Positions 28,899 through 33,964 of a stretch of DNA of 34,019 nucleotides are shown here, one piece after another. This stretch comes from Aliiglaciecola sp. (lineage in GTDB: Bacteria; Pseudomonadota; Gammaproteobacteria; Enterobacterales; Alteromonadaceae): NCBI GenBank assembly GCA_028356795.1, contig JAOMVH010000011.1:1-34019 (forward strand), written 5' to 3'. Positions within the stretch are counted from its first letter, which is position 1. Every line of letters begins with the position of its first letter. Position numbers and translations under genes: made by a program. Below the pieces are notes generated by a model that had not been told where the DNA came from, searched no databases, and was given only the letters and a program-made list of their open reading frames with translations.

Positions 28899-30071
28899 CT
28901 AATCCAGTTGCTCACGCTCTCCATCACTCATCAATCTATAATGCTCGCCATTTTGAATCAGTAATCCTTCTGAATATTTTGTTGGAAAGCTTGAACGATA
29001 GTCATCTGGATGTTTTACATCGATGGCAAATAGCTTGTTAGCGAATTGGGCGTTAACACTAAACTGAATGGTGTGACCGACAACCAACGCTTTTGCGTCA
29101 AATTTTTTCAAAATGGCATCGATTTGAGTTTGCGATATATCTTCTTGGAAATACCCTCGATACCATGCCGGACCAGTTTTGTCTGAAACAAGCAATGCCT
29201 CTTCTTGGTTTGTGAGTCCTGGATAATAAAATTGTCGATAATATTTGCGAACAACTTCATTAATGTCAGTGAGTCGCCAACCTTTGTCGGTTACATCAGG
29301 ATGAATGCCTCCGTGCACAAATATATAGCCGTTGATCATCTCAACGCTGTTTTTTGATCCAAGCCATCGGCCTATCAGCGCATCATTTGCGAATAAATCA
29401 GCTTGAGATTTACCTATCATTCCGGCAATGGGAATATATTTGTTTGCTGCAGAGCGAAAGTTGCCCTGCATGTTTTTTATTTCATGGTTGCCAATAATAT
29501 AATGTACCTGGCCACCCACCTTTGCCGCTTCTTGTTCCAATTTGTAAACAAACCACAGCAACTGGGTAGTTGAGTCTCCTCGGTCAACTAAATCACCAAC
29601 CAATACGAGATGACCTTTGTTAAAGACCCATGCTAAGTTTTCATCGATGACATTGTTAGCAATTAAAAAATCACGCAGCGCTTTATAATTACCCTCTAAA
29701 TCGGATATGGCTACGATTGGCTGACCATCATCATAAATGGATGGTGGGCTCTCAATGTCAGCAACTAGGTCAAATTGAAACGCGCTATCATCACCATGAA
29801 AGGTAACCTCTGCAGAGACAGTTCGGTCGATAGGGTGATATTGTCGTTCAATCGAAAACCCTTGCTCGCGATTTCCTTTGATATAAATGGTTTCGAGTTG
29901 ATCTTTGGTAAAAAACACGAACGGCCCTTCACCGTCTACTTTATTAGCAAGGGGATTGTCACCATAACTAATAGAGCCGTTCTGGCTGACTACAATCAAA
30001 ATTGCGATGACTAGTAGAAACAACCCAACAGCAAGAAAATGACCAATATATAACGCGATTTTTTTTAACAT
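28899..30071 (-). CDS. Membrane-anchored metallophosphoesterase of PPP type with variant first motif
   Basis: A 390-aa protein. One N-terminal helix (about residues 8-29) after a basic KK predicts an anchor with the rest in the periplasm. A ~80-residue beta-rich spacer is followed by the catalytic domain (about 117-360) with the calcineurin-like set: D124 in ISDLEGNYKAL, GDLVDRGD (D160, D163), GNHE (194-197), VHGG (H253), VVGHT (H333). In standard PPP enzymes the first motif is GDxHG; here it is SDxEG, with Glu126 in place of the metal-binding His. The start lies 8 nt after the HAAS gene in the same direction, third in a padR-led operon. Substrate unknown. Confidence 0.85.
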   Translation of the reverse strand: MLKKIALYIGHFLAVGLFLLVIAILIVVSQNGSISYGDNPLANKVDGEGPFVFFTKDQLETIYIKGNREQGFSIERQYHPIDRTVSAEVTFHGDDSAFQFDLVADIESPPSIYDDGQPIVAISDLEGNYKALRDFLIANNVIDENLAWVFNKGHLVLVGDLVDRGDSTTQLLWFVYKLEQEAAKVGGQVHYIIGNHEIKNMQGNFRSAANKYIPIAGMIGKSQADLFANDALIGRWLGSKNSVEMINGYIFVHGGIHPDVTDKGWRLTDINEVVRKYYRQFYYPGLTNQEEALLVSDKTGPAWYRGYFQEDISQTQIDAILKKFDAKALVVGHTIQFSVNAQFANKLFAIDVKHPDDYRSSFPTKYSEGLLIQNGEHYRLMSDGEREQLD

Positions 30072-30079
30072 GGCTTTAC

Positions 30080-30649
30080 TCAGTTCTTGCTATGGAATAA
30101 TTTTAGAATTTGCAAAATTCGGTGACTCAAAAGCAGCAGCAGATAGCCACAAAATATAAATAATAGTGTTAGCCAGAGACCGGTAAATACCTCCCCATCC
30201 TCGATATATCCGGGGGATGAAATAGTACCTACAACAAAGCTATTGCCATCAGCAACGGACCAAATTCCGATAGAGTTTGGAATGACCAGATTATAAAACC
30301 CTGCAAATATGAGAATGATCCCAAGTCCATAACCAAAAACAAACATGCTGTAATATAGGGTTTTAGAGACCCCTTTTCTCACCAATGAAATAGATCTGAA
30401 GCCCCTTGGTGGAGGTGCGCCATTGAGAATGTGACTGACATAACCTGAGGCCAGTTCTCGAGGCGGGCCAAAGCCTTGCAAAATAGTTTCAACGTCAGCA
30501 ATTGAGCCTTTTGCTTCTGTTTGGTCAATGGCATCAAAAATATGGGATTCTATTTCCTTAACCACCTCGTTTGCTTCGTCCTGATTAAGTCTGGCCAAAT
30601 AAAGTTCGAGGTCTTTCAAGTAGTTTCTTAATTTGTAGTTATCAGACAT
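30080..30649 (-). CDS. HAAS-domain membrane protein linked to PadR
   Basis: A 189-aa protein from the ATG at 30649 (an in-frame TTG at 30673 overlaps the padR stop but has no ribosome site; GTGGAA precedes the ATG). The N-terminal ~75 residues, MSDNYKLRNYLKDLELYLA through ETILQGFGPPRELASGYV, match the HAAS (DUF1700-like) helical domain with its G-P-E/R-x-L-A element. Two hydrophobic segments follow (about 98-123 and 155-182) with a polar loop in between. HAAS membrane proteins are commonly encoded right after PadR regulators and are thought to transmit or respond to a membrane signal. It is gene two of a three-gene operon. Confidence 0.8.
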   Translation of the reverse strand: MSDNYKLRNYLKDLELYLARLNQDEANEVVKEIESHIFDAIDQTEAKGSIADVETILQGFGPPRELASGYVSHILNGAPPPRGFRSISLVRKGVSKTLYYSMFVFGYGLGIILIFAGFYNLVIPNSIGIWSVADGNSFVVGTISSPGYIEDGEVFTGLWLTLLFIFCGYLLLLLSHRILQILKLFHSKN

Positions 30650-30669
30650 GGGCAATTCCACTGTGTTTT

Positions 30670-31014
30670 TCAATTAGTTTTGGTACGTTTTAACAACGCG
30701 TGAATGTCGTTAACTGATTGCTGCCAACGTGCATTCATGTCAGTTAGTCGTTGCTGGCCTTGTTGATTCAGCGTGTAATACTTTCGAGGTCGCAGCTCGC
30801 CTTCTTGAACCCAGTTTGCATCGATAATGCCTTCGCGCTTAAGGCGATCCAACAACGGGTAGAGGGTTCCTTCGCTAATTTTCATAGTCTCAAACTCATG
30901 TAAGTAGTTGAGCAACTCTAGGCCGTACAATGCTTTAGGTTGCAATGCGGCAAGGATCACTAACTCCAGTGAGCCTTTGCGTAATTGCACATCCCATTTA
31001 GATTCTGCTTTCAT
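30670..31014 (-). CDS. PadR family transcriptional regulator
   Basis: A 114-aa winged-helix protein. The DNA-binding part has LRKGSLELVILAALQ, ALYGLELLNYL and the wing EGTLYPLLDRLKREGII, all PadR hallmarks, followed by RPRKYYTLNQQGQQRL and a C-terminal dimerisation helix. I use the ATG at 31014 (AAGGTG 11 nt upstream) over an in-frame GTG at 31029, which would sit inside that ribosome site. Predicted role: repressor of its own padR-HAAS-phosphoesterase operon, binding the palindrome 34 nt upstream. The inducing signal is unknown. Confidence 0.92.
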   Translation of the reverse strand: MKAESKWDVQLRKGSLELVILAALQPKALYGLELLNYLHEFETMKISEGTLYPLLDRLKREGIIDANWVQEGELRPRKYYTLNQQGQQRLTDMNARWQQSVNDIHALLKRTKTN

Positions 31015-31047
31015 AAATAACCGGTGCACCTTGATACTTGGTTTTAT

Positions 31048-31074
31048 ATTATACTTTGTAGTACAAGGTATAAT
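31048..31074. promoter_or_regulatory. 27-bp palindrome: candidate PadR operator overlapping -10 boxes
   Basis: Half-sites ATTATACTTTGTA (31048-31060) and TACAAGGTATAAT (31062-31074) are reverse complements at 12 of 13 positions around a central G. Each end carries TATAAT: one on the minus strand (31053-31048), placed correctly for padR about 34 nt before its ATG, and one on the plus strand (31069-31074). Binding here would block the padR promoter. The -35 hexamers are weak on both strands. Confidence 0.75.
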
Positions 31075-31253
31075 GTAGTGTTTAGTCTTTTACTATGCAA
31101 TGCTATTTTTACGCACATTGTAAATAAGTGTGTCAGTCGAGCTTTTGAATCAAAATTGATGGTCTAAGTGAGAGTTCTCGCCTACTTAAATAAAGCTTTG
31201 ACCACTCAGTGCAATAGTCCTTGTGAGTAATTGATTAAAACCTGCTTTTTAAC

Positions 31254-31281
31254 TTGCATAACACTTTCATTCCCGTATAAT
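31254..31281 (+). promoter_or_regulatory. Sigma-70 promoter of the rpsP-rimM-trmD-rplS operon
   Basis: TTGCAT (31254-31259) and a perfect TATAAT (31276-31281) are 16 nt apart, followed by CTCGCGG, a GC-rich discriminator as in growth-rate-controlled ribosomal promoters. The start codon of rpsP is about 87 nt downstream. Confidence 0.8.
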
Positions 31282-31368
31282 CTCGCGGCCTTGATTTTCG
31301 GTACGTTTGTATTGAAAACCGAGGAAAACAAGTTAACAGTATCGCTATTACGAGTTTGAGGCATACAT

Positions 31369-31620
31369 ATGGTTACTATTCGTTTACAGCGTGGTGGCGC
31401 TAAAAAGCGTCCATTTTATCAAGTAGTGGTTGCAGACAGTCGTCGTGCGCGCAATGGCAAGTTCATTGAAAACATCGGCTTCTTCAATCCAACAGCACAA
31501 GGTCAAGCAGAGCGTTTGCGTTTAGATCTTGAGCGTGTTGAGCACTGGGTTGGACACGGCGCAAGCTTGTCTGAGCGTGTTGCTCGCTTGGTTAAAGATG
31601 CACAAAAAACAGCTGCATAA
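31369..31620 (+). CDS. rpsP: 30S ribosomal protein bS16
   Basis: An 83-aa protein with the bS16 pattern [19 protein letters not shown] and [19 protein letters not shown]; length matches the family. GAGG precedes the ATG. It is a small-subunit assembly protein and the first gene of the conserved rpsP-rimM-trmD-rplS operon; 27 nt separate it from rimM. Confidence 0.98.
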
Positions 31621-33379: not shown

Positions 33380-33407
33380 AAAAACCCGCCATCTGGCGGG
33401 TTTTTTG
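33380..33407 (+). terminator. Rho-independent terminator of the rpsP-rplS operon
   Basis: AAACCCGCC and GGCGGGTTT form a 9-bp GC-rich stem with an ATCT loop, followed by a run of T. It lies about 32 nt after the rplS stop. Confidence 0.95.
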
Positions 33408-33613: not shown

Positions 33614-33964
33614 ATGATTGCTCTCCTACAAACGATAGACCCTGGAAAGTCGCCATCAGGTGTTGGTAATGCTATTGCATTGACGTAGGTACAAAATCAA
33701 AATGTATCGAGATTAGGTTTTTGTCGAATAAGCAAATTAGAGGTTGATGAAAATGAAGTCGTTGCTCTGGATATGTCTGGCGATGGCATTGCTTTAACAT
33801 ATGCTGGTGCGGAGCTTTTCACTACGGGTGTTGATTCTCGTAACCAACAAAGCTCAGTAATAGCCCTTCCTGATACCGCTGTAGCGGTTCCAAATCCTGC
33901 AACGTTAGCATTAATGCTTATTGGTTTTGTTGGTCTAGATCTGAGCCGGAAATTACAGCGTTAA
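33614..33964 (+). pseudogene. Remnant gene with PEP-CTERM-like C-terminal sorting signal
   Basis: A single reading frame runs from an ATG at 33614 to the stop at 33962-33964, broken once by an in-frame TAG at 33686-33688. Upstream of the TAG it reads MIALLQTIDPGKSPSGVGNAI; after it, 91 residues end in VPNPATLALMLIGFVGLDLS followed by RKLQR. That tail fits the PEP-CTERM layout: P-x-P, a hydrophobic helix, and a short basic cluster (VPNP replacing VPEP). No signal peptide is visible in this frame, so the 5' part of an exported protein has probably been lost. A shorter open part begins at an ATG at 33773 without a ribosome site. I infer a decayed exosortase substrate gene; no exosortase gene is present in the window. 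The bases 33408-33613 before it hold nothing I can name. Confidence 0.6.

Follow-up and report, generated by a model that had tools for sequence, protein, structure and literature searches.

A conserved palindrome upstream of a HAAS-linked padR gene is probably the autoregulatory operator of a padR-HAAS-phosphatase operon

A near-perfect palindrome of 27 bp located at positions 31048–31074 of the window (the whole 34,019-nucleotide stretch of Aliiglaciecola DNA analysed here) very probably acts as the main autoregulatory operator of a padR-HAAS-phosphatase operon, at which, judging from its conservation among relatives, the PadR protein would repress its own operon. Direct reading gave ATTATACTTTGTA-G-TACAAGGTATAAT, with 12 of the 13 pairs matching around the single central base 31061, just as an earlier sequence-only reading had described. 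The outer six bases are also TATAAT on opposite strands, as that reading stated (31069–31074 on the plus strand and 31053–31048 on the minus strand). The palindrome belongs to neither strand in particular, and extension of its arms reached 16 nt at 88% complementarity (31045–31060 and 31062–31077). Among all odd-centred 27-mers in the 34-kb window it was the only one reaching at least 12 of 13 pairs, against a chance expectation of 0.03 (mean of 100 dinucleotide shuffles of the window). When up to three mismatches were allowed on both strands, the letters of the palindrome matched only themselves in the window, and its central 23 bp matched only themselves in the whole assembly (59.56% complete). 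We had also considered a repeat element, a reading rejected because the palindrome is single copy in this 59.56% complete assembly.

The three genes that the operator would control are all encoded on the minus strand. The first one, padR (30670–31014; 114 aa from the ATG, with an alternative GTG start at 31029), matched PF03551 with 72.5 bits (cut-off 27). It is followed by a gene for a HAAS-domain protein (30080–30649; 189 aa with hydrophobic stretches; PF22564 with 57.2 bits, cut-off 27) and by one for a calcineurin-like phosphoesterase (28899–30071; 390 aa with an N-terminal hydrophobic stretch; PF00149). The PadR protein matches solved chains of 110 to 117 aa over most of its 114 aa, to be compared with the about 100 residues and one short C-terminal helical part that define the small subfamily PadR-s2/PadR-2. 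The two signature tyrosines of its DNA-binding motif, in YGLEL and GTLYPLL, align with those in YGYEI and GTVYTIL of 6abq, which we take to be LftR, and it also matches PDB 5dym (E 7.9e-9), presumably cdPadR1. The HAAS protein contains GFGPP, which may correspond to the GxP of the kinked third helix characteristic of HAAS-PadR dyads, and the position of this PF22564 gene beside a stand-alone padR is the arrangement of such dyads. As for the phosphoesterase, its nearest solved chains (2z72, 2zbm, and 1v73; E about 2e-48) carry the names psychrophilic phosphatase I and protein-tyrosine-phosphatase; we assume that the nearest one is the Shewanella enzyme that founded the 'Shelph' phosphatases.

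Evidence for an operator came from the orthologous padR loci. We searched for them in 60 relatives (padR at E 1e-5 in 13 of them, own genome included) and then in 395 genomes of the family (padR at E 1e-10 in 125, own included), and defined as close those loci with tblastn E below 1e-30, namely 37 with the window and hence 36 others. The 300 bp upstream of each close padR were scored against the consensus TACYWTGYANTRCAWRGTA of a 19-bp core, which in the window spans 31052–31070, is assigned to neither strand, and has the padR-strand sequence TACCTTGTA-C-TACAAAGTA. The core occurred with at most one mismatch upstream of 32 of the 36 close orthologues (28 with none and four with one), the remaining four having three mismatches (three loci) or four (one locus). 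By comparison, among 299 further 300-bp windows taken from these loci, none contained it at two mismatches or fewer, and four did at three. At the level of genomes, a perfect core was present in 29 of the 35 family genomes with a close padR versus 4 of the 360 without; these orthologue and genome counts are partly circular, as the consensus derives from the family loci that it scores, and many of the padR loci come from few genera and are not independent events.

Since the consensus had been drawn from the scored family loci, we searched 394 genomes of the order as an independent test, finding padR at E 1e-20 in eight of them, four of which had already been seen or were our own. The three close orthologues found out of sample (tblastn E below 1e-30) represent two other families; all had the core (3/3, with 0, 1, and 1 mismatches), and each of them also had the HAAS and phosphatase genes behind padR; a more distant out-of-sample padR (L109) had a site with three mismatches. 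The sequence-only reading had suggested a PadR operator at the gene's own promoter and had named a lack of conservation upstream of orthologous padR genes as one result that would refute it. Conservation is instead what we observed, within the family and beyond it, and it makes the operator the most likely explanation of the palindrome.

The core appears to be linked to padR and its partner rather than to a genomic neighbourhood. The HAAS gene lies behind padR in all 36 close loci and the phosphatase gene behind HAAS in 25 of the 36 (within the 1.5 kb examined), and the core accompanies padR-HAAS across differing neighbourhoods and in other families. One of these orthologous loci is found in Marisediminitalea aggregata (Alteromonadaceae). 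In 25 genomes checked for perfect cores we found 15, all of them at padR. Conversely, seven of eight genomes of the same genus lack both padR (E 1e-5) and the phosphatase (E 1e-40), and in these seven genomes the core was absent even at one mismatch. In the window, the padR-HAAS-phosphatase block (28899–31029) sits between ffh, beyond the phosphatase gene, and the plus-strand genes rpsP, rimM, trmD, and rplS, on the other side of the palindrome (names taken from reading the translations). Three of the eight same-genus genomes (L067, L069, and L073) have ffh within about 0.6 to 1.0 kb of rpsP, and the 1.5 kb examined contained no ffh in the remaining five.

This linkage weighs against the idea that the site is the operator of some other regulator, with padR as a bystander. 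Such a reading could invoke the five perfect copies located away from padR in the 395 genomes and the fact that PadR binding is predicted only, but we consider it very improbable, given that the site is missing from the padR-less genomes of the genus, tracks padR-HAAS through changing surroundings and families, and is lacking where the PadR protein itself differs. In fact, the core-less orthologues (L025, L027, L038, and L047) belong to a single genus and have in common several residues unseen in the 33 others, among them residue 48 of the recognition helix, which is D in the four core-less PadRs and E in all 33 others. These four loci keep one or two copies each of the inner motif TTGYANTRCAA, without the outer TAC/GTA, and where the inner motifs are paired they stand 18 bp apart. 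That operator and recognition helix differ together is suggestive, and it probably represents one event.

Of the five perfect cores away from padR, three (in G077, G266, and G369) fall within coding frames. In another genome, G088, which has no padR at E 1e-10, the perfect core (L093:1828–1846) is found between two unrelated genes. A perfect core was present in four genomes that lack a close padR, in three cases inside a coding frame. The remaining copy, in G202 (L096:1797–1815), is located 60 bp before the ATG of a stand-alone orthologue of the phosphatase (L096:1876–3150), and is the best hint that the phosphatase may belong to the PadR regulon, although it comes from one genome. Near the phosphatase paralogues of G002 and G165 (35 and 33% identity), we found no site better than five mismatches in the DNA examined, and the 1-mismatch sites examined in G002, G026, G110, G338, and G227 had no adjoining match to PadR, HAAS, phosphatase, or RpsP. 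In four distant padR paralogues (L016, L054, L056, and L057), a 1-mismatch site (TACCTTGTATTGCTAGGTA) precedes the match by 225 to 247 bp, which we interpret as a related operator at another distance. Other distant PadRs are preceded by palindromes of the TACT/AGTA type with a different inner sequence; for L011, L013, L015, L017, L058, L063, and L064, neither the core nor the TACT/AGTA pattern was matched.

We also looked for the promoter on which such an operator would act. A simple sigma-70 scan of 30500–31600 found no promoter because the candidate -35 hexamers fall below its threshold. Scoring of 33 operator-bearing loci (window included) with a sigma-70 matrix pointed to a putative minus-strand padR promoter, with a -35 box TTGCAT (31095–31100, at a similar position in relatives) and, after a 17-bp spacer, a -10 box TACATT (31072–31077) that abuts the core; the predicted start would fall near 31065, inside the operator. 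This -10 box is the second-best padR-ward candidate in the window, with a score of 6.8 versus 7.2 for the TATAAT within the palindrome. Since the window alone slightly favours TATAAT, the upstream placement rests on the relatives: of the 33 loci, 22 have their best predicted -10 beginning 16 to 24 bp ahead of the operator centre, whereas 60 shuffles of the flanks averaged 3.4 such loci and never exceeded 10. The interval, as well as the choice of the padR-nearest operator where there were two, was picked after seeing the promoter scores; moreover, the loci are related to one another, and the shuffles take no account of the A+T-rich repeats of the half-sites.

The sequence-only reading had envisaged one operator lying over two divergent -10 boxes, one for padR and the other for an unlisted transcript toward rpsP. 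TATAAT is indeed present on both strands, with the best padR-ward score in the window and the second on the plus strand (7.7), and T occupies position +10 in 25 and position +13 in 24 of the 33 loci. However, neither box has a recognisable -35 (ATTATA and ATATTA). At the homologous places of the 33 loci, counting the window, the padR strand has an exact TATAAT in 7 and the other strand in 4, and the predicted -10 boxes are concentrated upstream of the operator. On the opposite strand, the best -10 positions are more scattered, the commonest one (-14) accounting for 6 of the 33 loci. A divergent promoter should leave both a conserved gene and a conserved -10 box on the opposite side, and an RpsP match near padR was found in the window only (0/36 relatives). 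Moreover, rpsP has its own conserved promoter, TTGCAT-N16-TATAAT (31254–31281, plus strand), separate from the palindrome, of which TTGCA and GTATAAT are invariant in the nine genomes compared (our own and eight of the same genus); no operator was found upstream of rpsP in these eight relatives. We consequently regard the divergent arrangement as unlikely and do not retain the transcript toward rpsP. Of the minus-strand promoter first proposed for padR, the location of the operator at that promoter most likely holds, while the palindromic TATAAT as its -10 box is disfavoured by the relatives; conservation probably does not reside in the striking TATAAT ends.

It might also be thought that the palindrome works as an RNA hairpin, either a leader structure or a terminator. 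The plus-strand RNA has a predicted folding energy of -14.3 kcal/mol (z -5.08), a strong fold because the sole mismatch becomes G-U on that strand. Nevertheless, folding is expected of any DNA palindrome of this kind, and the cores conserve their letters beyond mere pairing. The halves of the core are unequal in the relatives, with a bias on the padR strand toward G-U (27 unequal pairs) over A-C (8), in addition to 18 others, among 29 distinct sites; this could suggest a stem on the padR strand, but the padR-strand RNA of the window has A-C, contrary to the majority, and folds weakly (-6.3, z -2.33), so that a stem is not consistently preserved on either strand. The palindrome's stem is also A+T-rich, unlike the likely terminator at 33383–33406. 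An RNA role for the palindrome appears highly improbable to us, and we continue with the DNA operator as the preferred reading.

Around the core, additional and weaker copies of the inner motif may provide further PadR sites. A scan of all offsets in the 33 loci gave +17 and -17 bp as the two best (an offset of 18 had first been judged by eye), with on average 3.1 and 3.6 mismatches, respectively, compared with a mean of 6.1 over all offsets (sd 0.87); copies with at most two mismatches were found at +17 in 17 of the 33 loci and at -17 in 15. In the window, the putative satellites, both assigned to the minus strand, are located 17 bp upstream (31073–31083, two mismatches to WTGYANTRCAW) and 17 bp downstream (31039–31049, three mismatches, perhaps by chance) of the core centre. 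This spacing suggests PadR dimers bound side by side. A more elaborate model, possible rather than probable in our opinion, would make the palindrome the central site of a three-site array with 17-bp steps that steers a circuit of PadR repressor, HAAS sensor, and membrane-anchored PPP-type phosphatase, the latter being kept under the operator even when unlinked. Such a PadR-HAAS-phosphatase membrane signalling circuit is, apparently, one that we have not seen described.

The comparison provides conservation, padR linkage, near-uniqueness in genomes, and one copy before an unlinked phosphatase gene, and from these we infer how the operon might work. A PadR dimer would bind the 19-bp core, which would cover the transcription start because it lies directly downstream of the predicted -10 box. 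Bound PadR would then block RNA polymerase and repress its own operon, and the HAAS protein may relieve this repression upon an envelope signal.

An operator of this kind resembles several known ones. According to the available text on the small PadR cdPadR1 of Clostridioides difficile, this protein binds TACT(N11-12)AGTA in its own promoter, forms several shifted complexes, with more than one site per promoter, and has 200 reported motif matches (PMC5050560). The likeness includes the size of the protein, an inverted repeat in its own promoter, near-identical outer letters with 11-bp spacing, and multiple sites. In the window, where binding is only predicted, the letters are TACT-N11-GGTA, one letter off, and the exact TACT-N11-AGTA lies within the core of 11 of the 36 orthologues. 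Unlike in the cdPadR1 site as presented there, an inner sequence of the TTGTA-N-TACAA type is also conserved, and perfect sites number about one per genome, against those 200 motif matches. The classical PadR/LmrR operator, ATGT-N8-ACAT, is likewise an inverted repeat at an autoregulated promoter in the sections available (PMC4517056, PMC3506622), as the one proposed here would be; its letters were not found upon direct reading of the 27-mer at 31048–31074.

The gene order has parallels as well. In Listeria monocytogenes, as far as the consulted account goes, the padR-DUF1700 operon of LltR (lmo0599) is up over 100-fold in a padR mutant (PMC6624303). It combines, in a self-repressed operon, a padR with a following gene for a membrane protein of DUF1700, from the HAAS superfamily, and differs in its third gene, which encodes a DUF4097 protein there and the phosphatase here; the consulted account names no operator for it. 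Coupling of a HAAS protein with a stand-alone PadR, as in the window, is also the basis of the HAAS-PadR-like wHTH dyad, for which it has been proposed that a membrane signal releases or reconfigures PadR; the main text of that work does not mention the terms operator, palindrom, phosphoesterase, or Alteromonad (PMC11237479). In the portions of the literature covered on HAAS-PadR systems, PadR operators and autoregulation, PadR of Alteromonadales, and links with phosphatases, there is no evident description of the 31048–31074 site. The operator is of a known type and, for a specialist, expected rather than surprising. What it offers is a concrete 19-bp candidate operator for PadR regulators linked to HAAS proteins in Alteromonadaceae and relatives, naming a site where the HAAS-PadR literature, in the parts available, proposes a signalling role without one, together with a hint that a membrane phosphatase forms part of the HAAS-PadR circuit.

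Two other features of the window are located on the far side of the rpsP genes. After rplS, a G+C-rich hairpin with a run of T behind it (33383–33406) is likely the terminator of the rpsP-rimM-trmD-rplS operon; it probably accounts for the one even-centred palindrome of comparable kind, centred at 33392. Further on, a small ORF (33773–33964) ends in a tail (VPNPATLALMLIGFVGLDLSRKLQR) that we take to be a PEP-CTERM-like motif.
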